Source of the DNA: a virus
IMG/VR virus record: IMGVR_UViG_3300021440_000523
Coordinates: 1-24,971 of that record
Strand: one strand, 5' to 3'
DNA length: 24,971 bases
Shown: one piece after another, positions 2,929-24,971 of the stretch
Position numbering within the stretch: the first letter of the stretch is position 1
How the letters are laid out: each line of letters starts with the position of its first letter
Translations under genes and position numbers: made by a program
The notes under the pieces: generated by a model
The model's database searches: none
Told to the model about the DNA's origin: nothing
Seen by the model: only the letters and a program-made list of their open reading frames with translations

Positions 2929-2941
2929 AGGTGACACATGA

Positions 2942-3085
2942 TTACTTCTTACGCTTCCGTGCCTTTTTCTTTTGCTTCTTCGCGGCATCCTTCTCGATTT
3001 CGCGGTCTAGTTCCGCTTTTGGTACTTGCGCTAGTTTGCCTAGCAGGTCTCGAAAGTCGCCAATCCGTTCGCGCTTCGTGTTCAT
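2942..3085 (-). CDS. 47-aa Lys-rich protein of the IS
   Basis: The ATG overlaps the transposase stop in an ATGA arrangement, so the two are probably translationally coupled. The first 30 residues (start MNTKRERIGDFRDLLGKL) look like an amphipathic helix; the last 15 are almost all Lys and Arg. I recall similar short, basic-tailed proteins next to transposases in planctomycete genomes, which would make it a conserved passenger or accessory protein of this IS group, but this is from memory. It could help bind DNA ends or only be a remnant. It is too short for a confident family call. Confidence 0.5.
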   Translation of the reverse strand: MNTKRERIGDFRDLLGKLAQVPKAELDREIEKDAAKKQKKKARKRKK

Positions 3086-3741
3086 TTGATCCCCATAAAA
3101 CCGGCGTCGCCTTGGGCGGTCAGTTGTCGGAAGGTCAGCCGCTTGCCCACTACGTCCGACAGGATGCGGCGGAACCGTCCGCCGATCTTCTCCATGCGGA
3201 CCTCTCCGCCGCGTTCCAAGAGCCCCTGGACGATTGCCTTGCCCACCGTGCCGCGCCCCTTGATCTTGTCGGCCCGCTTGTGCTTGTGCATGTTGCGGGC
3301 CTTCCCGCCGATAAACGTCTCATCGGACTCCACCTCGCCGCTGAGTTTGCGGAACGACTTGGTTTGCATCGCCAGCCGGATTCTGTGCAGCATGAACCAC
3401 GCCGTCTTTTGAGTGACGCCGAGCGACCGGCCCAACTCGCAGGACGAAATGCCGTTCTTCGCGTTGGCGATGCACCACACCGCGACGAACCACTTATTCA
3501 GGCCGAGCGGGCTATCCTCAAAGATCGTGCCGACCTTACACGAGAACTGTTTGCGGCAGTCCTTCGCCTTGCATTGCAGCATCGACCGGCTGGTGATGAC
3601 GCCGACCGATTCGCAGCCGCACTTAGGGCAGGCCAGTTTGCCGTCAGGCCACTTGGCCGCGAGCATCGCCTTGAACGTCACGGCCGGATCGGCGAAGTAG
3701 GTCACGGCTTCGAGCAGGGTTTTCGGGGTGTCGTCGTTCAT
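3082..3741 (-). CDS. IS1595-type transposase with in-frame core deletion
   Basis: The 219-aa protein has the IS1595/ISXO2 layout at its start: a zinc ribbon (C38-x2-C41 and C57-x4-C62), a helix-turn-helix-like region (about 98-125), and the first acidic catalytic residue D140 in ESDETFIGGK. The alignment then breaks: after about residue 186 it jumps to GGRFRRILSDVVGKRLTF, which in this family is the extreme C-terminal end. Roughly 80-110 residues carrying the second and third catalytic positions appear to be missing without loss of frame. The usual family length is about 300 aa. It could still bind the element's ends but should not catalyse transposition. It starts 3 nt after the stop of the Cys-rich gene upstream. 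Confidence 0.75.
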   Translation of the reverse strand: MNDDTPKTLLEAVTYFADPAVTFKAMLAAKWPDGKLACPKCGCESVGVITSRSMLQCKAKDCRKQFSCKVGTIFEDSPLGLNKWFVAVWCIANAKNGISSCELGRSLGVTQKTAWFMLHRIRLAMQTKSFRKLSGEVESDETFIGGKARNMHKHKRADKIKGRGTVGKAIVQGLLERGGEVRMEKIGGRFRRILSDVVGKRLTFRQLTAQGDAGFMGIK

Positions 3742-3744
3742 GGA

Positions 3745-3948
3745 CTAATACTCGCCCTTTCCAACGTCTTTTTTGTCGATTCCGAGGATTCTCGCTTCGG
3801 TTGCCTCGCTGGCAGCAATGACCAGTCGGCGGAACTTCGGGCAGGCATCACGGCAGCCGCAGTCACAGCCTGGGCCGCAACATTCGCAGCCACGACCGCC
3901 AGGGCACCTACTGCGGGACCGCCTTACTTGATCGTTCACGGTTTTCAT
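3745..3948 (-). CDS. 67-aa Cys-rich protein of the IS
   Basis: It lies directly upstream of the transposase on the same strand, with a 3-nt gap. Residues 15-36 hold eight cysteines spaced among Gly, Asp and Pro, a pattern suited to binding a metal such as zinc; the N-terminal part is basic. I do not recognise it as a named family. It is inside the inverted repeats, so it travels with the element as a passenger or a transposition cofactor. An annotation pipeline may miss it because of its length and composition. Confidence 0.4.
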   Translation of the reverse strand: MKTVNDQVRRSRSRCPGGRGCECCGPGCDCGCRDACPKFRRLVIAASEATEARILGIDKKDVGKGEY

Positions 3949-4061
3949 ACGGCCTCCAGCGCTTCACGCATCGCGTTCAACGGTTAGTTGGTGCGACATG
4001 GCTTCGGCTCCAAAAACGAGAGATATTCACTGCCCATAAACCAATCATAGCCGCTTAAGTC

Positions 4062-4085
4062 TGATGAGTCAAGTATATAGTTGCC
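4062..4085 (-). repeat. right terminal inverted repeat of the IS
   Basis: Reverse complement of the left repeat at 21 of 24 positions, with a perfect inner 14 bp at 4062-4075. Confidence 0.85.
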
Positions 4086-4093
4086 ATTGAATG
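4086..4093 (+). repeat. right target-site duplication (ATTGAATG)
   Basis: Identical to 2897-2904. The interrupted reading frame resumes through this copy. Confidence 0.85.
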
Positions 4094-4195
4094 GGGTCTT
4101 ATCTTCGCTCACGCCTACTATCCCCGCGAAGTAAATCTAATCGTTAACGTCGTCTGTAACGAACTACGAATCGACTAATAGCAAGGAGCTACGGC

Positions 4196-6106: not shown

Positions 6107-6286
6107 ATGTTAGTTCTATCGAGACAAAAGGGAGAAGCGATTGTTATCGGTGACGGTCTCATAACCGTAATCGTTCAAGAGATCAGAGGAGATAAGGTAC
6201 GATTAGCTTTTGAAGCTCCTAAGGATATCAGTATCCATCGTAAAGAAGTTCAAGACGCAATCGAACGAGAGAAGAAGCATAAGTAA
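6107..6286 (+). CDS. csrA: CsrA-family RNA-binding translational regulator
   Basis: The 59-aa product starts MLVLSRQKGEAIVIGD and has EIRGDKVRLAFEAPKDI and IHRKEV, matching CsrA along its whole length. The RNA-contact residues known from CsrA are present: L4 and R6 at the N-terminus and the H-R pair at 44-45. CsrA dimers bind GGA motifs, often over ribosome-binding sites, and change translation or stability of the mRNA. It sits 24 nt after the protease gene, with AAAGGA 8-9 nt before the ATG. A phage copy could switch host physiology or control the phage's own messages, most of which have GGAG-type binding sites. Confidence 0.9.
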   Translation: MLVLSRQKGEAIVIGDGLITVIVQEIRGDKVRLAFEAPKDISIHRKEVQDAIEREKKHK

Positions 6287-14891: not shown

Positions 14892-16181
14892 TTAGAGAGC
14901 GGTCATTTCAATCTTCTGATTCTTACCTACGATTACGCTAACGTCTCCAATCCCACAGAGATTCAAATTGATACCGTTAGTGGTCGTCACGTATCCGTTA
15001 GGATCGTTCCACGAAGCCCCCGCATACAAGTCTACGTTAGTGAACGCTACCGCAGACGTAGAGTTGACGTTAGTGAAGTCTACCGTACCTCCCACGCTCG
15101 TATAGTTCGTAACGGTTCCGGTTGCTCGTCTCCAATTCAACGTACTACCGGCTTGCTGCTTGATCGTCGTTACATCTCCGCTACGTCCGAAAAGCGTAAC
15201 CGTCGTGCCCACCTTCATATCAATCAACGTAGGATCATCGATAGCGTAGCTCACTAACGATCCGCCGTTAACGGTAATCGAGGTAGCTAACACTACGCCC
15301 TCTCCCAACTCAATATCCGATCCCGCTCCTTGAGCAATCGTACCTAACGACGATGTTTGTCCCGGTTCCTTAGCGATATCTAAAGCGGCATAGCATTCCT
15401 TTACGTTAGAGGAAGTGCTGTTACATAACCACAAAAACGGTGCTTGTCCGTCACCGTCACGGCTACCGCTCTTGTAAACGTAAACATCACAAGCTTGCGT
15501 ACCCGTATTCAACCGTAAGGAAGGTACGCTTGCTCCTAACCCTTCTCCGTACTGTACGGAAAAAGCACCTAACAACAACTCCGTTCCAAGGTACTCCACA
15601 AATCCATTAGCATTCTGCTTAGGTAGTCCGACTAATAAACCAGCTTGAGAAGTGCTAACAACGTGAAGCTCAATATTGGTAACTGCCGCATGGCTCAAGT
15701 TGTATTGCGGAACGATTCCGTATACCCCTAGCCATACCTTATCGTTCGTAGCGGGTACTGCTCCGGTATCCCAATTGTCTACGTTGTTCCAATCCAACGA
15801 TCCCGTACCGGGAGTAGGATTACTCTTAGCAATCGTCTGTGCGTCTGCCGCCCCTCCACCTGCTTCCGTAGTAGCTACGCTCAAGCTTGCGTAGATAGGT
15901 CTACCATCACTCGGTCCCGTACCGATGATGTACGTAGGCGTAACCGTACTATTAAGCTCCCAAGTCAAATCTTGAAACTCTAAGGGAGCATCACCGCTAG
16001 ATAACGCAGCTTGAAGATCGGTACAGACGCTTGCAATCGTCGTAGCACTAGCTGCAATTTGTACCGTAGAGATGCCGATAGTCACCTTAAAAATATCGCC
16101 TACCTCAATCGTTCCTCCCGGTGTGATATTAATAACATCGGCTACATTTGCCGCTCCACCCGTATAGATAACCGTTCCCAT
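14892..16181 (-). CDS. lone reverse-strand beta-rich protein (429 aa)
   Basis: This is the only phage gene on the - strand. The protein is rich in Thr, Val, Gly and Asn with little charge, typical of beta-rich surface proteins. Its first 110 residues have the pattern GGTIEVGDIFKVTIG followed by an Ala/Thr helix (ASATTIASVCTDLQAAL), then a Gly/Ala linker and LDWNNVDNWDTGAVPATNDKVWLG; I recall this order from proteins of planctomycete prophages. The remainder repeats short strands like a beta-helix. A tail-fibre, decoration or surface-exposed moron product fits. Codon use matches the phage, so it is not recent. The start is served by CTGGAAGGAAACAA, which is the dispersed motif read in reverse. 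Confidence 0.6.
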   Translation of the reverse strand: MGTVIYTGGAANVADVINITPGGTIEVGDIFKVTIGISTVQIAASATTIASVCTDLQAALSSGDAPLEFQDLTWELNSTVTPTYIIGTGPSDGRPIYASLSVATTEAGGGAADAQTIAKSNPTPGTGSLDWNNVDNWDTGAVPATNDKVWLGVYGIVPQYNLSHAAVTNIELHVVSTSQAGLLVGLPKQNANGFVEYLGTELLLGAFSVQYGEGLGASVPSLRLNTGTQACDVYVYKSGSRDGDGQAPFLWLCNSTSSNVKECYAALDIAKEPGQTSSLGTIAQGAGSDIELGEGVVLATSITVNGGSLVSYAIDDPTLIDMKVGTTVTLFGRSGDVTTIKQQAGSTLNWRRATGTVTNYTSVGGTVDFTNVNSTSAVAFTNVDLYAGASWNDPNGYVTTTNGINLNLCGIGDVSVIVGKNQKIEMTAL

Positions 16182-18917: not shown

Positions 18918-20045
18918 ATGGCAGTTAACATTTCTACTCGGGAGCTTTTCGCTTCCCCGGTCGTTACTAAGGTGGTGCGAACCATCGTAAGTCCTCAGGA
19001 CTTGCTACAACGGTTCTTCGGTCTTACCCCGGACAGTGCCAACGTTACCGACGTAAGCGGTCACGATTGCTCTTGGGACGTTTTCGAGAATACTCGTCAA
19101 CTCGCTAACATGCGTAGTCCCGGTACTGGTCCAGGTACTCGTAAGTTGCAACCGGCTGGACACGTTTTCGCTCGCATCCCTCGGATGCACGAAAAGGTTC
19201 ACTTGCTGGACGAACAGATTTTCCGTATGCGTCAACTCGGACAGAATCCGAATAATGTTGACGTTAAGGGTCAATCGTACGTCTTCAAGCAACAGGAAAT
19301 CATTGCTCAACGGTTCCGTAATACCCGTGAGTTCATGGTTTCGCGTATGCTTCGCGGTAGCTTCCAAGTGAAGCAATCGGGAGACGATTGGGTTCCTTGC
19401 GACAGCGGCGGTACGTTTACCGTTGACTTCCAGATTCCGGCCGGTAACAAGTCGCAACTCAACATTACCGGAGCCGGTGATGCTATCGCGGCTACGTGGG
19501 CTACGCTCTCGACGGATATCCCGACGCATATCAATACCGTCAAGAAGTATTTCGCTCAAACGCACGGTATGCAGCTTAAGTACGCTATGTGTAGCTCGAC
19601 CACGTTCCACCAACGTGTAGCAGCTAACACGGTCATGCAAGCTCAGGCGGGTACTGCCAACTACTACTGGCAGGAATACAACGTCAACGCTAAGCTCGGT
19701 CCTAACGGTGAGCAAGGTTTCACAACCATCGTTCACAAGGCTCTACCGTGGCTACAGTGGATTCTCTACGATGCCATGTTGGAAGTGGATGGTACGACCA
19801 CTCAAGTTATCCCCGATGATCGTGTCGTATTCCTCCCGGAACCTACTAGCCAATGGGTGAGCGGTTTCAACGGTTCGGAAATCGTCCGTGAGAATCGTCT
19901 TGCTCCGGGTGAAGAACGCTTCGGTATGCAAGCTTGGACGGAACCGACTACGCAACCTGCCGGTTTCGAGTTGCTTGCGGTGGATAACTTCCTTCCCGCT
20001 CTGTTCATCCCGAAGGCTATCGGATATGCGACAGTAGCGTTCTGA
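18918..20045 (+). CDS. major capsid protein (gpE-like, HK97 fold)
   Basis: The 375-aa protein follows the decoration gene and has features of the major capsid protein E family: an N-terminal arm, a segment rich in basic residues around 100-150 (RIPRMHEKVHLLDEQIFRMR), strand-rich middle and a C-terminal domain with VDNFLPALFIPKAIGYATV. It should form the icosahedral shell. TAGGAACTAACAAGCA precedes the ATG. Codon use is less AT-rich and very regular, as expected for a highly expressed gene. A strong terminator lies 130 nt downstream. No obvious delta domain is cut from this protein; the scaffold role may lie in the 16735 gene. Confidence 0.85.
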   Translation: MAVNISTRELFASPVVTKVVRTIVSPQDLLQRFFGLTPDSANVTDVSGHDCSWDVFENTRQLANMRSPGTGPGTRKLQPAGHVFARIPRMHEKVHLLDEQIFRMRQLGQNPNNVDVKGQSYVFKQQEIIAQRFRNTREFMVSRMLRGSFQVKQSGDDWVPCDSGGTFTVDFQIPAGNKSQLNITGAGDAIAATWATLSTDIPTHINTVKKYFAQTHGMQLKYAMCSSTTFHQRVAANTVMQAQAGTANYYWQEYNVNAKLGPNGEQGFTTIVHKALPWLQWILYDAMLEVDGTTTQVIPDDRVVFLPEPTSQWVSGFNGSEIVRENRLAPGEERFGMQAWTEPTTQPAGFELLAVDNFLPALFIPKAIGYATVAF

Positions 20046-20177: not shown

Positions 20178-20248
20178 AGGGGGCTTCCCTTAGCAACACT
20201 TTTCTTGCGTGGAGTGTTAACTACCGGAAGCTCCCTATTTTTATTTTT
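20178..20248 (+). terminator. strong intrinsic terminator after major capsid gene
   Basis: AGGGGGCTTCC (20178-20188) pairs with GGAAGCTCCCT (20226-20236), one G-T pair; inner stems TAG/CTA (20191-20193 with 20221-20223) and AACACT/AGTGTT (20195-20200 with 20213-20218) extend it. ATTTTTATTTTT (20237-20248) follows. A second hairpin (CCTAC/GTAGG, 20145-20169) lies just before. The gap 20046-20272 otherwise holds two copies of TTGACAAC (20097, 20125) and no gene. Confidence 0.85.
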
Positions 20249-20272: not shown

Positions 20273-20500
20273 GTGTTTACAATAGTTCTTAAGAAATCTA
20301 CTAAAGATCTCATCCGTATTGCGAAGAAAGAACGTCCTAAAGCGACAAAAGCTATTATGTCCGGCTTTTGGGACGGTCAAAAAAGCAATCGTAGCGTAGC
20401 TCGTACGAAATCTGCCGGTATACTTCGGAGCAATCGTAAGTTTTTCGGCAATAAGGAAGCTCGTCGGTTAGTTCTTCGTGGACACGGCTACGGTAAGTAA
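20273..20500 (+). CDS. very basic small protein (75 aa)
   Basis: I use GTG 20273 as start, directly behind CCTAAAG; the first ATG (20357) would leave only 47 residues. About a third of all residues are Lys or Arg, with few acids, and the sequence has SNRSVARTKSAGILRSNRKFF, with no membrane segment. It is the first of six such genes in a row behind the capsid terminator. Small basic proteins here could condense DNA, be minor virion parts, or bind RNA; no family is recognised. Confidence 0.5.
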   Translation: MFTIVLKKSTKDLIRIAKKERPKATKAIMSGFWDGQKSNRSVARTKSAGILRSNRKFFGNKEARRLVLRGHGYGK

Positions 20501-20502
20501 CA

Positions 20503-20518
20503 TTCTCTTCCAGAAAAA
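20503..20518 (+). repeat. dispersed motif copy, exact core 20508-20517
   Basis: TTCTCTTCCAGAAAAA, between the 20273 and 20546 genes. Confidence 0.8.
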
Positions 20519-20545
20519 GCAAGACGCTACAGAGGTTAACAATCA

Positions 20546-20902
20546 ATGTCGTTAGAACGTTCTAGATACGATTGGCCGAAGCTCATAGAGAAGTTAGGTA
20601 TCTCTACCTTCTACACTTGTGCTATCTGCTTTGCTCTTTGGCAAGTAGTGTTATGGCTCGGACCTCGGTTAGACACTGTAGTTAACAAGCATCTAGAGTT
20701 TGTTGACAAAGCGGGTCTTATCATGGAAGAGAACAAGGATACTCAACAACGTAATACGATTATCCTTGAGAAGCTATCGTTAGAGCAAATGTCTCATAAT
20801 GGTATTAGTTCCGGTCATTTAATGACTACGGAACGTATCGAGAAGAAGATTGATACAATCGGTTCCGATCTAACAGAAGTTAAAAAGAAGGTACTTCAAT
20901 AA
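20546..20902 (+). CDS. membrane-anchored coiled-coil protein (118 aa)
   Basis: GAGGTTAACAATCA precedes ATG 20546. Residues 20-40 (TFYTCAICFALWQVVLWL) form a membrane segment; after it the protein is a long charged helix with heptad character to the end (TERIEKKIDTIGSDLTEVKKKV). This N-terminal anchor plus coiled coil resembles small phage membrane proteins of unknown role and some holin-associated or Rz-like inner spanins. The stop overlaps the next start (TAATG). It is the only membrane protein in a run of basic ones. Confidence 0.6.
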   Translation: MSLERSRYDWPKLIEKLGISTFYTCAICFALWQVVLWLGPRLDTVVNKHLEFVDKAGLIMEENKDTQQRNTIILEKLSLEQMSHNGISSGHLMTTERIEKKIDTIGSDLTEVKKKVLQ

Positions 20903-21147
20903 TGTCTAAAGCAGTTAAACGTGTTCAATCGTTAGTTAACAAAATCGCTCGTCCTTACGCTAAGGCATATCATGGTGCTCATAAGCCTATGCCTAACAAT
21001 TATCTCCGTACGGGACGTAAAGGTACGGGTCTTCGTAAGCTAGTAGCAGATCGTATCAAGCTGGAACGTAAGCACGGCATGATTAAGAAACGTGACGGCT
21101 ATATCGGCAGCAAGTACGTCTATTCTTCGCATCACAAGCAATACTAA
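20902..21147 (+). CDS. very basic small protein (81 aa)
   Basis: The ATG overlaps the preceding stop. The protein has over 20 Lys/Arg residues and several His and Tyr, with segments such as LVADRIKLERKHGMIKKRDG and a C-terminus SSHHKQY. It is expected to bind nucleic acid or a strongly acidic surface. The stop is followed by one base and the next ATG. No family is recognised. Confidence 0.5.
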   Translation: MSKAVKRVQSLVNKIARPYAKAYHGAHKPMPNNYLRTGRKGTGLRKLVADRIKLERKHGMIKKRDGYIGSKYVYSSHHKQY

Positions 21148-21148
21148 C

Positions 21149-21301
21149 ATGCGTAAACGTCTCGCAACTCTCAACACTAGAGCTAATCGTATCTCCCAAC
21201 GTAAATCTCGTACGATTCTCCATGAGGGAGTAGTTCGCGGTCATGCTCTCACTAACAAACAACGTCGTTTCTTCGGAGCGATGAGTAGTAAGAAAGGGTA
21301 G
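21149..21301 (+). CDS. protamine-like basic protein (50 aa)
   Basis: I start at ATG 21149, one base after the previous stop; the in-frame ATG at 21092 lies inside the preceding gene. In 50 residues there are 14 Lys/Arg and a single acid (MRKRLATLNTRANRISQRKS onward), giving a strong net positive charge. There is no hydrophobic core, so it is unlikely to fold alone. Possible roles are DNA condensation or a minor capsid role. Not recognised. Confidence 0.5.
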   Translation: MRKRLATLNTRANRISQRKSRTILHEGVVRGHALTNKQRRFFGAMSSKKG

Positions 21302-21306
21302 TTAAT

Positions 21307-21483
21307 ATGGCTCTCAAACATCTTAAAAGCAGTACGAAACTTATTCTCAATCACGCTTCCGGCAACAAAGCTCTCGGTAAGATTCTCCGTAACGCAAGAG
21401 CTAAGGATATGAAGAATCGTCGTAAGATTCTTGGTCCCTTAGCTTCCAGAAAAGACCGTCAACACTATCAGAACTTTCAATAA
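21307..21483 (+). CDS. basic small protein (58 aa)
   Basis: ATG 21307 follows the preceding stop by 5 nt, with AAAGGGTAG upstream. Sixteen Lys/Arg against two acids in 58 residues, in two amphipathic helices (start MALKHLKSSTKLIL). An exact copy of the dispersed motif (21444-21453) is near the 3' end, read as Ala-Ser-Arg-Lys. It fits the surrounding set in size and charge. Confidence 0.5.
   Translation: MALKHLKSSTKLILNHASGNKALGKILRNARAKDMKNRRKILGPLASRKDRQHYQNFQ
21442..21453 (+). repeat. dispersed motif copy, exact core 21444-21453
   Basis: GCTTCCAGAAAA inside the 21307 gene; the left palindromic arm is lost here, leaving only the core. Confidence 0.7.
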
Positions 21484-21491
21484 GGTCTAAT

Positions 21492-21716
21492 ATGGCTCTA
21501 CGTCGTAAACGTATCAAGCCTTCCGTTATCTCTCATGCAGTTAAGAGAGCTACCGGGATGATGTACGCTCAAAGCGGTAATGTCGGTAGCGACAATATCC
21601 GCAAGTCAAAAGCTAATCATATCCGTTTTGTACGTAAGCAACCGGAAGGTAGAAAGTTTCTCCGTTCCGAAGTTAAAAGCAATATTCGCTCCTACGGGAA
21701 GAAAGCATACCTATGA
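21492..21716 (+). CDS. very basic small protein (74 aa)
   Basis: AAGGTCTAAT lies before ATG 21492. The protein is Arg/Lys-rich throughout (MALRRKRIKPSVISHAVKR at the start) with a Gly/Ser/Asn loop in the middle and a basic end. The start resembles the 58-aa neighbour (MAL followed by basic residues), so the two may be distant duplicates. It overlaps the next gene by 4 nt. No family is recognised. Confidence 0.5.
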   Translation: MALRRKRIKPSVISHAVKRATGMMYAQSGNVGSDNIRKSKANHIRFVRKQPEGRKFLRSEVKSNIRSYGKKAYL

Positions 21717-21919
21717 GTAAGCTAACAATCGTACATCGTCGTACGCATTACGCTTACCGTGATCTACTCAAACGTGGAGTGGGAGTAGATATCGGAGAAT
21801 ACAAAGGTAAGCGAATGGTTCCCGATAAACGTCGTCCCGTAGATAAGAAGAATCGTAAGAATGTCGCATCTATCCTAAAGACTCGCCGTAAAGCGGGTGA
21901 GTACGCTAGGGGACTCTAA
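21713..21919 (+). CDS. very basic small protein (68 aa)
   Basis: The ATG overlaps the previous stop (ATGA). About 21 of 68 residues are Lys or Arg, with six acids; the middle is Gly/Asp/Lys-rich (GVGVDIGEYKGKRMVPDKRR) and may form a small strand region. It stops 2 nt before the gp36-like gene, so it is co-translated with head-completion proteins, which supports a structural role. Function unknown. Confidence 0.5.
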   Translation: MSKLTIVHRRTHYAYRDLLKRGVGVDIGEYKGKRMVPDKRRPVDKKNRKNVASILKTRRKAGEYARGL

Positions 21920-21921
21920 CT

Positions 21922-22413
21922 ATGGTTGAATCTCTCAACTACACGTACTCTAGTGAGGCTGAGGTAAAACGCATTCTCACGACTAACGGTTATACGGACT
22001 ACACTACCGATGACCGTACTCCCGCAGACGTTATCGGAGATGCAGTTAATCAAGCTACTGATGAGGTTAATATCCGTTGCCTTAAATGGTACGGAGAATC
22101 CGACCTAGCTAATAACAGTTTCGTACGTCGATTAGCTACGTGGATTGCTTGTTACTTGTTAACGCAAGATCGTGGAGACGAGCCCCGTTATCAGGATGCT
22201 TATAACAAAGCTATCGAGACGCTAGACAAGGTATCAAGCGGGGAGTTTCAATTACCCCGTTGTCCTCAACGTGCGGACCTAACTCCGTGTATGAGCAACT
22301 ACGTGATTGACGATCGGTTCAAGAAGTCCAAGGTACGTGTTCAGGGTGCTACGAGTGTAGGACCAACGTATACGGAACAGAAACAAGACATTACTTTTGA
22401 TCCCCTTTGGTAG
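21922..22413 (+). CDS. gp36-like head-completion protein
   Basis: The 163-aa protein matches in pattern the phage Mu gp36 (DUF1320) family: an N-terminal helix-rich part, a segment PADVIGDAVNQATDEVNIRC, then LATWIACYLLTQDRGDEPRYQDAYNKA and LDKVSSGEFQLP. In related phages proteins of this kind sit at the head-tail junction, joining portal and tail. It starts 2 nt after the last basic gene. The C-terminal 50 residues (DDRFKKSKVRVQG) are longer than usual and may be disordered. The dispersed motif follows the stop. Confidence 0.7.
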   Translation: MVESLNYTYSSEAEVKRILTTNGYTDYTTDDRTPADVIGDAVNQATDEVNIRCLKWYGESDLANNSFVRRLATWIACYLLTQDRGDEPRYQDAYNKAIETLDKVSSGEFQLPRCPQRADLTPCMSNYVIDDRFKKSKVRVQGATSVGPTYTEQKQDITFDPLW

Positions 22414-22415
22414 TC

Positions 22416-22433
22416 CTTTTCCTTCCAGAAAAA
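22416..22433 (+). repeat. dispersed motif copy, exact core 22423-22432
   Basis: CTTTTCCTTCCAGAAAAA, in the 43-bp gap after the gp36-like gene. Confidence 0.8.
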
Positions 22434-22456
22434 GAATCCTCACACAGTAGTTAACA

Positions 22457-22777
22457 ATGCCAGCTAATAACACAATCATCAGTACTCCCGTCATTACGAA
22501 TACAACAATGACGAGTGCTAATACGGAATACTCATTCGAGATTCCGGCAGGAAGCGTACGGTTCTCCATCAAGTGCCAAGACGGTACTGCCTTTCGTCTA
22601 GCTTTCGTAACGGGAAAAGTAGCTACTCCTACCGCTCCCTACCTCACGATTCTCGCTAATGGTGCGTTAAATGATCCGGGAGATATCCAAATCGGTAGTA
22701 CCGCTCTCACGGTGTACGTAGCTTGTGCTTCCGCAGGGAAGATCATCGAATGTGTTAGCTATCCTCCCCGTACTTAG
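22457..22777 (+). CDS. beta-sandwich structural protein (106 aa)
   Basis: GTAGTTAACA precedes ATG 22457. The protein is beta-rich, with NTEYSFEIPAGSVRFSIKCQ and AFVTGKVATPTAPYLTILA, a pattern I remember in small phage proteins next to head-completion genes. Thr- and Val-rich strands and few charges suggest a virion protein, possibly a decoration or neck component. It is followed by the reverse-orientation motif that serves the next gene. Confidence 0.6.
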   Translation: MPANNTIISTPVITNTTMTSANTEYSFEIPAGSVRFSIKCQDGTAFRLAFVTGKVATPTAPYLTILANGALNDPGDIQIGSTALTVYVACASAGKIIECVSYPPRT

Positions 22778-22791
22778 AAGAAGCTTCTAGC

Positions 22792-22808
22792 TTTTCTCTG
22801 GAAGAAAA
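22792..22808 (-). repeat. dispersed motif near copy used as ribosome-binding site
   Basis: TTTTCTCTGGAAGAAAA; GGAAG ends 7 nt before ATG 22812. One mismatch to the core on the reverse strand. Confidence 0.6.
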
Positions 22809-22811
22809 TAA

Positions 22812-23834
22812 ATGATCGGCTCTCTATTTATGGGTGGTAGGAACGGAATCGGCGGACCATCGCTAGGTTTCGTTTCGTTGGTATCTGATAATGCCGCAGG
22901 CGGCGATTCGCCCACTGTCTTTACACTCGTCCTCGACGATTTGCTGACGCGGCGATTCACCGGCAAAAACCAACAGATGCAGTTGACGCTAGGGGGGCCG
23001 GCACCCGGCGACACCGCTTCTCTCACCCTCGACACCACCGATGTAACGTCGCTAGCGGCAAATATCCAGGCTGCGATCATTGCTATCAACGGCACGCTCA
23101 CTGGTCTAGTAACGGTCAGCGGTGTGGAAACGAATGCAGGCGACACTCAGACATTCACCATCACGTTCGACGCTTCGCTCGAAGCGGTGACGCTCGCCTT
23201 CCATGCTTCGTCTCAGTGGTATCCCACGATCACGCTCACCGAAGCGGTGACGCAGCAAGGTGTCGCGGACGTTGCCGGGGTCTATGAAGTGTCGCAAGTG
23301 CAAGCCATTGCAGTAGAAAATGGCGTTACCGGAGATACGACCACTGACAACAACGGAAACTCGGTCACTTGCGATGGAAACGGAACCTACGCATCTCACG
23401 TCACGGCATCCAACTGGACGAACGGAACGCCGGGAAACCCGATGAGTTTTACCTGCGATTCCTACGGACCACAGGGGACGGTCATTGGGTCAGGCAATGG
23501 TTCCGTCACGCGAATGGTGCTAGGCGTTACTCCGGTCACAGGCCAGCCCGAAATCCACACGATCACGCCGACACCGGCGAGCCCTACGGGCGGAACATGG
23601 AAGCCGTATGTTTCTGGTTCGGCGGTTGGATACGCAGACGGTGCTGCTCCAATTGCGGGAGTAATAGGTAACGTATTCGACCCAGCAAATTCTGCTCAGC
23701 CATCGGTTTCCGGTGGAATCGAATCAGGCCCAATTACCATCACAGCGCCAAGTAACGGCGTCCTTGCCGACGACGTACTCTCCCCCGTCAACGTCTCCCT
23801 GACCGCACCGGAAATCACGCACTCGATTAGTTAA
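22812..23834 (+). CDS. large beta-rich structural protein, foreign composition
   Basis: The 340-aa protein is Thr/Gly/Ser-rich with few charges. A region at about 45-140 has a strand-helix-strand pattern (QLTLGGPAPGDTASLTLD, then an Ala-rich helix) broadly like the N-terminal domain of the 14892 gene; later parts look like linked beta domains. It is probably a tail or fibre protein, or an adhesin-like virion part. From about 22857 the DNA is visibly richer in G+C than its neighbours and uses codons such as GGC, GCG and GAC, while the first 15 codons look phage-like. This suggests that most of the gene came recently from a host or another phage. Confidence 0.55.
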   Translation: MIGSLFMGGRNGIGGPSLGFVSLVSDNAAGGDSPTVFTLVLDDLLTRRFTGKNQQMQLTLGGPAPGDTASLTLDTTDVTSLAANIQAAIIAINGTLTGLVTVSGVETNAGDTQTFTITFDASLEAVTLAFHASSQWYPTITLTEAVTQQGVADVAGVYEVSQVQAIAVENGVTGDTTTDNNGNSVTCDGNGTYASHVTASNWTNGTPGNPMSFTCDSYGPQGTVIGSGNGSVTRMVLGVTPVTGQPEIHTITPTPASPTGGTWKPYVSGSAVGYADGAAPIAGVIGNVFDPANSAQPSVSGGIESGPITITAPSNGVLADDVLSPVNVSLTAPEITHSIS

Positions 23835-23836
23835 TT

Positions 23837-24589
23837 ATGCCCGTAATCGTCAAAGTTAAAGCAGCATCACGTACCGTACAACGGTATCTGAAAACGATAC
23901 CTCAACAGTTAGCTTCCAAGTCTCGTTCCGATCTAAACAAATGTCTTACCAACCACCTAGCCTACAATCTTTTCTCTAAGATCGAAAAAGCTTTCATAGA
24001 TAAGAGCAAGGGAGGATCGGACGAGCTTGGAAATTATTGGAAACCATTAGACCCGAAGACGATTGCCGCAAGACCACTCACGGAGAAAGAGGAGAAGAGA
24101 TTTGCTGACCGTAGCGAGAAGGGACTGTTAACTCCCGGAGAACTACGAATCTGGAAAGGTATCTTCGCTAGTCAGTTCGCTAAACATCGTAAGAGTATGA
24201 ACGATGCGAGAGCTAAATACCTTGCCGCTAAATCCGCATGGGCAATCTTGAAGAGTAAGGGAGCTAAGACACGGATAGGTTTCCTTTCCAGAAGAAAGGT
24301 ACTCATCCTACGTATCTCTGAAAGGTTGCTTAAATCAGTATCAGCCGGTACTCTTTCTGGAAACAGATATTACAAACCTCAAGAGCAAATCTTTAAGAAT
24401 GATGATGGAGAGTTACAGCTAGGTTCCGCAGTACCGTATGCAGAGCATATAAACAAAGCACGCAAGATCATCCCTAGTAAAACGGCTATGATTAGGGGTG
24501 GATGGGTTCGATGGGCTCTCAAGAAGTCCGCAATAGGTGTAGCCGAAGTTATCGCAACGAAAGTCTCAAGGTTAAACAATAGGAGTTAG
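23837..24589 (+). CDS. probable neck/tail-completion protein (250 aa)
   Basis: It begins 2 nt after the foreign gene and returns to phage codon use. The basic, helical first 150 residues are followed by a loop and a segment with AVPYAEHINKARKIIP, the pattern VPYAxxxxxxR seen in phage virion-morphogenesis (tail-completion) proteins, and a final amphipathic helix. In those families the protein closes the tail or neck at the junction to the head. Position after gp36-like and decoration-type genes agrees. Near copies of the dispersed motif are at 24286-24295 and 24354-24363. Confidence 0.6.
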   Translation: MPVIVKVKAASRTVQRYLKTIPQQLASKSRSDLNKCLTNHLAYNLFSKIEKAFIDKSKGGSDELGNYWKPLDPKTIAARPLTEKEEKRFADRSEKGLLTPGELRIWKGIFASQFAKHRKSMNDARAKYLAAKSAWAILKSKGAKTRIGFLSRRKVLILRISERLLKSVSAGTLSGNRYYKPQEQIFKNDDGELQLGSAVPYAEHINKARKIIPSKTAMIRGGWVRWALKKSAIGVAEVIATKVSRLNNRS

Positions 24590-24596
24590 TGATATG
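24572..24596 (+). repeat. duplicated gene leader, copy 1
   Basis: The 25-bp stretch including the end of the 23837 gene, the AGGAG site and ATG 24594 matches 24823-24847 at 24 positions. Confidence 0.7.
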
Positions 24597-24812
24597 GCTA
24601 AGAAGATAAAACTAAAAGTAGTAAGAGCCGTACAAGCTGTTACACGAGAAAGCGTACACCCTAACTATGCTAAGCATTTAATCAATAAACGTTCTGCTAA
24701 AAATCGGGATTATCGAAAAGATCGTGCTAAAAGTCTCAAAGATTGGCGTAAACGTATGCCGTCTACGGTACGGGGAATTGTTAAAGATAAGATGCAAAGT
24801 AGCTATACCTAA
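24594..24812 (+). CDS. very basic small protein (72 aa)
   Basis: ATAGGAGTTAGTGAT precedes ATG 24594. More than a third of the residues are Lys or Arg (RSAKNRDYRKDRAKSLKDWR in the middle). It is similar in size and charge to the six basic proteins at 20273-21919 and has the same leader as the next gene, so it may be one of a duplicated family. No known family. Confidence 0.5.
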   Translation: MAKKIKLKVVRAVQAVTRESVHPNYAKHLINKRSAKNRDYRKDRAKSLKDWRKRMPSTVRGIVKDKMQSSYT

Positions 24813-24822
24813 TGTCTCTCGA

Positions 24823-24847
24823 TTAAACAATAGGAGTTAATGATATG
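24823..24847 (+). repeat. duplicated gene leader, copy 2
   Basis: Matches 24572-24596 at 24 of 25 positions, covering the ribosome-binding site and start of the next basic gene. Confidence 0.7.
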
Positions 24848-24971
24848 TCTAACAAAATGAAAACGATCAAACGTCGTACCGTCTATACCGGGGATTCGTT
24901 ATCAGCAAATCGTAACTATGCTATGTTTAGCAAAAAGACAAAAATAGGTCGTGTGCGTCGTAAGGAATTGG
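24845..24971 (+). CDS. basic small protein, 3' end beyond window
   Basis: The first 42 codons are visible: MSNKMKTIKRRTVYTGDSLS and onward, with KKTKIGRVRRKE near the edge, very basic. The AGGAGTTAATGAT leader is almost the same as that of the 24594 gene, and the piece around NRNYA resembles HPNYA in that protein, so the two are likely paralogues. The gene continues past the window. Confidence 0.5.
   Translation, partial: MSNKMKTIKRRTVYTGDSLSANRNYAMFSKKTKIGRVRRKEL

Follow-up and report, generated by a model that had tools for sequence, protein, structure and literature searches.

What do small, strongly basic proteins do when their genes stand in a row inside the head module of a phage? The window that raises this question is the whole stretch of viral DNA analysed here (24,971 bases), whose head genes encode the small and large terminase subunits, a decoration protein, the major capsid protein and a gp36-like connector. 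An earlier note had located an array of such genes among the head-completion genes. Its gene coordinates are correct, and the main row of the array lies between the capsid gene and the gp36-like connector gene.

The head module and the basic-gene array

The major capsid protein gene (18918..20045, + strand; PHROG 29 major head protein, E 2e-21) forms the upstream border of the array. At 20178..20236 (+) it is followed by a predicted RNA hairpin with a U-rich tail (-30 kcal/mol, z -5.25; equal stability in 0 of 200 shuffles), which would be a terminator-like element dividing the capsid gene from the array. On the other side stands the gene of the gp36-like connector or head-completion protein (21922..22413, +), which matches Pfam PF07030 Phage_Mu_Gp36 (E 1e-7) and PHROG 195 head-tail adaptor. 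Further downstream, a basic connector-type protein of 250 aa (23837..24589, +; net charge +32) is 38% identical to a protein of relative G001 and, in part, 41% identical to one of relative L008, while its counterpart in relative L142 weakly matches PHROG 26 tail completion/Neck1. A capsid-profile scan yielded 16 relatives; searches with single capsid proteins found none, so that alignments were needed. Capsid protein identity to the relatives is 28–47%, and the terminase is 44% identical to that of a distant relative. Since the window encodes a gp36 homolog and relatives L150 and L144 carry Portal_Mu portals, the head module is Mu-like. Phage Mu shares the gp36 homolog with the window; Mu itself is not known to carry such an array of basic genes.

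The stretch from 20273 to 21919 holds seven genes, tightly packed in tandem on one strand. Six encode basic proteins (g1–g6: 50–81 aa, 26–31% Lys+Arg, net charge +13 to +18, pI 10.7–12) and one a neutral, single-span membrane protein. The earlier note had counted six genes including the membrane protein, all of them basic and 50–81 aa long; the six basic genes are there, but the membrane protein is an additional seventh, has 118 aa and carries a net charge of 0. The same note's "up to one third Lys/Arg" captures the strongly basic character and is slightly high, the maximum being 31%.

The array begins with g1 (20273..20500, +; 75 aa, GTG start, 28% Lys+Arg, net +17). The membrane protein gene comes next (20546..20902, +); its product, as read from the sequence, has one hydrophobic stretch followed by a charged helix, and it found no family match in Pfam and PHROG searches. 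Then follow g2 (20902..21147, +; 81 aa, 26%, net +18), the 50-aa g3 (21149..21301, +) and g4 (21307..21483, +; 58 aa, 26%, net +13), which weakly matches PHROG 34299, a family of unknown function (E 0.001). The row ends with g5 (21492..21716, +; 74 aa, 27%, net +17) and g6 (21713..21919, +; 68 aa, 31%, net +15), whose start overlaps the stop of g5 by 4 bases. Two further basic genes, announced at 24594 and 24845, are present 3' of the 250-aa connector-type gene: g7 (24594..24812, +; 72 aa, 31%, net +17) and g8 (24845..24971, +), which is cut by the contig end with 42 residues seen (31%, net +11). A 52-nt leader with a ribosome site is duplicated at 83% identity before g7 (24560-24611) and before g8 (24811-24862), a hint of a recent duplication of leader or gene.

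Are these ORFs genes? Their composition by itself could be chance, as the same cut lets through 7 of the window's 97 spurious ORFs. The clustering is non-random: six of the eight basic genes fall inside seven consecutive genes (permutation p 0.0007). Codon usage supports coding for most of the array, the scores of g2–g6 being clearly positive in the correct frame (0.12–0.22 per codon; 0.21 for g2, 0.14 for g4, 0.12 for g5 and 0.20 for g6), against a mean of -0.07 and a maximum of 0.11 among 61 spurious minus-strand ORFs. Scores are moderate for g1 and g7 (0.06 each) and uninformative for the incomplete g8 (0.01). That some or all of the array ORFs are not genes is scarcely credible: beside the composition cut, this reading can invoke the weak scores of g1 and g8, but it has to contend with codon bias in the correct frame, with tight tandem packing on one strand together with the clustering, and with homologs of g3 at E 8e-18.

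Other features of the window were noted in passing. A lone minus-strand gene lies between terminase and protease (14892-16181, -), as in several relatives (L003 at 12207, L138 at 2478, L144 at 5005 and 6439, L146 at 5340); the sequences are unlike one another, and it is possibly an exchangeable fibre or adhesin gene. The 13-bp dyad TTTCTGGAAGAAA recurs throughout the window: when up to 3 mismatches are allowed there are 33 sites where 9.3 are expected, a count reached by 0 of 100 shuffles. Examples are those at 1847, 9817, 14740, 16186, 17979, 20246, 20504, 22419 and 22795. Eleven of the 20 good sites lie between genes, where 10% would be expected to lie (p 7e-7), and inverted pairs flank g1 and the gene at 22457. 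The dyad has the look of a dispersed operator, similar to the stoperators of mycobacteriophages, or of a CsrA-type GGA hairpin. A clear CsrA homolog is encoded at 6107-6286 (PF02599, E 9e-21), and GGA-loop-like repeats occur elsewhere in the genome. The stretch 2938-4112 has 60% GC against about 47% in the rest and contains a minus-strand ORF (3082-3741) that by eye resembles an ISXO2-type transposase; it is probably an insertion.

The predicted hairpin of g3 and its family

Among the array proteins, g3 led to a family. It shares RGH-x-[LM]T-x-x-QRR with the basic gene of G001, and when viral contigs were scanned at the DNA level with a degenerate pattern for GH-LT--QRRFFG, 12 contigs were found. 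With a relaxed motif, the domain was found in at least 119 viral contigs. We call it DOM: a predicted helical hairpin of about 30 residues with the consensus KAKKIL-DG-VHGK-LT-KQ--FFGA. Among the matches listed, 69 are stand-alone ORFs (49 distinct), with a median length of 53 aa, 33% Lys/Arg and a net charge of +15; the other 52 are longer or cut by the contig end, and in almost all of these the motif starts near residue 20. Residues outside the search pattern, KA-KIL-DG, also agree, which would not be expected of chance pattern matches. A profile HMM built from other phages only, with the window excluded, recovers g3 at E 8e-18 (61 bits) and the G001 gene at 0.003, and the first array gene of relative L148 matches at 6e-4. 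In an alignment of 27 sequences g3 has all invariant columns of the core K..IL..G...G..LT.KQ..F.GA. By its profile match and alignment, g3 is thus a stand-alone member of a widespread microdomain family; when the ORFs of the window were scored, the other seven array proteins did not match the profile.

AlphaFold2 predicts a two-helix hairpin within residues 17-46 of g3 (core pLDDT about 94). Fold searches with g3 against the PDB and BFVD gave no significant match, nor did a sequence-profile search of the PDB. An Rfam search found nothing. A translated search of annotated phages with g3 and the DOM consensus returned nothing useful, as the low-complexity filter probably strips basic queries. 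The family is not named in Pfam, PHROG or NCBIfam. There is a weak resemblance to Pfam DUF6906 (PF21847), matched by 4 of 27 DOM proteins (best E 3e-4) and not by g3 itself, and a literature search found no paper on DUF6906. In the libraries searched, the family thus appears to be undescribed.

This predicted fold bears on the suggestion, made in the earlier note, that the proteins are protamine-like DNA condensers, taken here to be disordered proteins that act by charge alone. A Lys/Arg content of 26–31% and net charges of +13 to +18 would suit such a role. The idea does not fit g3, a confidently predicted folded hairpin whose family conserves uncharged G, L, T, Q, F and A and not just charge, and the structure model of g7 is all-helical, at low confidence. 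By our own estimate, moreover, neutralising the charge of a phage genome would take thousands of copies. We therefore regard protamine-like condensation as very improbable.

Basic genes beside head genes in relatives and other phages

Is the array shared by related phages, as the earlier note proposed to check? In part, it is. L148 (capsid 47% identical) has three consecutive basic genes immediately 5' of gp36 (54, 71 and 72 aa; 32–39% Lys/Arg), G001 (capsid 42%) has one 52-aa basic gene overlapping the gp36 start, and in L142 (capsid 39%) basic genes of 57–72 aa stand on either side of the connector gene, like in the window, with more near the protease gene. These are matching places; at the gp36 position, on the other hand, no basic genes were found in L138/L139, L140, L141, L144, L145, L146, L007 and L008. 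Gene counts in these loci are approximate, as a simple ORF picker was used. The sister contigs L003 and L004, 99% identical, have one and two basic genes, respectively, between terminase and protease, and the pair in L004 are paralogs, which argues for fast turnover. Altogether, the basic-gene theme is common to the relatives, its number and sequence change fast, and its distribution is mosaic.

Within this mosaic, individual proteins are hard to trace, and only g3 has homologs outside the lineage that sequence comparison makes certain. Possible homologs are L148 7234-7449 for g1 (p 7e-4 before correction for 300 pairs) and L142 11289-11498, which lies 3' of the same connector gene, for g7 (p 1e-3 before correction). 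Both similarities fail correction for 300 comparisons, and the pairing rests on gene position. A motif scan derived from g1 and its L148 counterpart gave two unrelated, incoherent matches, so that g1 is not shown to be widespread; the scan doubles as a control for the DOM scan. For g2, g4, g5 and g6 no homologs were found outside the lineage.

In G001 and L150 a conserved basic protein is also encoded after the Mu-type portal, and a similar one lies near the portal in L154. Its motif, RVRWG..REIDRR.HVGT.AW, was seen at or near Mu-type portals in L013 (8399-8653, reverse strand), L150 (3660-3971) and L154 (3825-4208); the window ends before this site.

Where do DOM genes lie in other phages? 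The 98 proteins that flank stand-alone DOM genes belong, by PHROG assignment and in a purely descriptive tally, mainly to terminase large subunit, portal, major head protein and head-tail adaptor; g3 itself lies between the capsid gene and gp36. In L030, L050, L062, L094 and L107 the DOM gene has a portal-sized gene on one side and, on the other, an acidic scaffold-like gene and then the capsid gene; portal and scaffold were assigned partly by position and size. Many of the large DOM proteins resemble each other and come from crassvirus-like contigs; the DOM-fused proteins had no annotated crassvirus match. In contig L017, a crassvirus muzzle protein (PF25731, E 4e-38) is encoded two genes 5' of a DOM-fused gene.

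These neighbourhoods could mean that the basic proteins are assembly factors outside the finished virion, which attach to the acidic scaffold, portal or connector while the head is being built and are later released or degraded. We consider this possible, if somewhat unlikely. The scaffold-like proteins next to the DOM genes of L050, L062, L094 and L107 carry net charges of -14 to -22, the basic genes of G001 and L148 abut gp36, and the conserved portal-adjacent protein of G001 and L150 would be in place for such a task. However, many relatives build heads without such proteins, and in the crassvirus-like fusions DOM sits on large and varied proteins, unlike what is expected of a dedicated assembly factor.

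Alternatively, the genes may be morons in the head operon whose products act in the cell, e.g. on host nucleic acids, ribosomes, nucleases or defence proteins. The mosaic of presence and absence and the fast divergence are typical of accessory genes, and the strong hairpin would divide the array from the capsid transcript. Yet the tie between DOM and head genes, seen in phages that are otherwise unrelated, is tighter than free-floating morons would lead one to expect, and no match to any described inhibitor family was found. We hold this reading to be unlikely, but count it, like the assembly factors, as a serious rival.

A proposed role as internal head proteins and a possible loading module

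We tentatively favour, at somewhat less than even confidence, a third reading: the array encodes mosaic, fast-evolving small basic head-accessory proteins that are taken into the head like the internal proteins of T4. In its favour are the clustering and codon use of the genes, the basic genes that precede gp36 in L148 and G001 and surround the connector gene in L142, and the differing copy number in L003 and L004. Further support comes from g3 as a member of DOM, whose stand-alone genes have chiefly those for terminase, portal, major head protein and adaptor as neighbours, and from the place of DOM in large proteins encoded close to a crassvirus muzzle gene. Among the functions proposed, "internal head protein" would fit the gene position best. 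The proteins would probably be made late, together with the head-completion proteins. Their likeliest partners would be nucleic acid, as their charge suggests, and/or the inner surfaces of the head. They would most likely be enclosed in the head during assembly and stay with the packaged DNA, possibly entering the cell together with it. Head building does not depend on them, as several relatives whose head module is the same lack them next to gp36.

The T4 internal proteins are small, contact DNA through lysines and are highly diverse between phages, and one of them, IPI*, once injected, blocks a restriction enzyme (PMC3012670). IPI and the others likewise form a small, basic, varied and head-linked set that differs between related phages (PMC3012670). 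The phage type differs, the head module here being Mu-like. A common N-terminal targeting sequence was sought, and the similarity was no better than in shuffled sequences (z 1.6 in the window, 0.3 with relatives); as no shared targeting tag was found, we do not file the array in the T4 internal-protein family.

The larger DOM proteins hint at a broader role. In phi-crAss001, muzzle gp44 is accompanied by the virion cargo proteins gp45 and gp46 (PMC10172136). In the crassvirus-like contigs the large proteins that carry DOM close to their N-terminus are encoded in the vicinity of a muzzle gene, and by position they may be virion cargo as well; the window proteins differ in being tiny and stand-alone. 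As a separate observation, in the crassvirus-like contigs L022 (2-1390, -) and L027 (4221-8672, +) DOM lies near the N-terminus and a histidine phosphatase domain comes after it (PF00300 in L022; PHROG 12933 in both), which suggests an enzyme delivered by the virion. One might propose that DOM, as a folded basic hairpin of about 30 residues, is a general head loading or anchoring module in unrelated phages, crassvirus-like ones included, a generalisation that we hold to be unlikely as it stands. If so, DOM alone would constitute a small internal protein, and near the N-terminus of large proteins it would bring these into the head or bind them to the packaged DNA.

In summary, variable small head-accessory proteins are already known as a kind, and the array is a variant of that kind. 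Small proteins of head modules are routinely left "hypothetical"; in this array, one such protein defines a widespread domain, undescribed in the main family libraries, which occurs on its own as well as near the N-terminus of large proteins. Should DOM help in assembly, it would supply a part that has been missing from many head modules. Should it load proteins into heads, it could be seen as a portable packaging tag.
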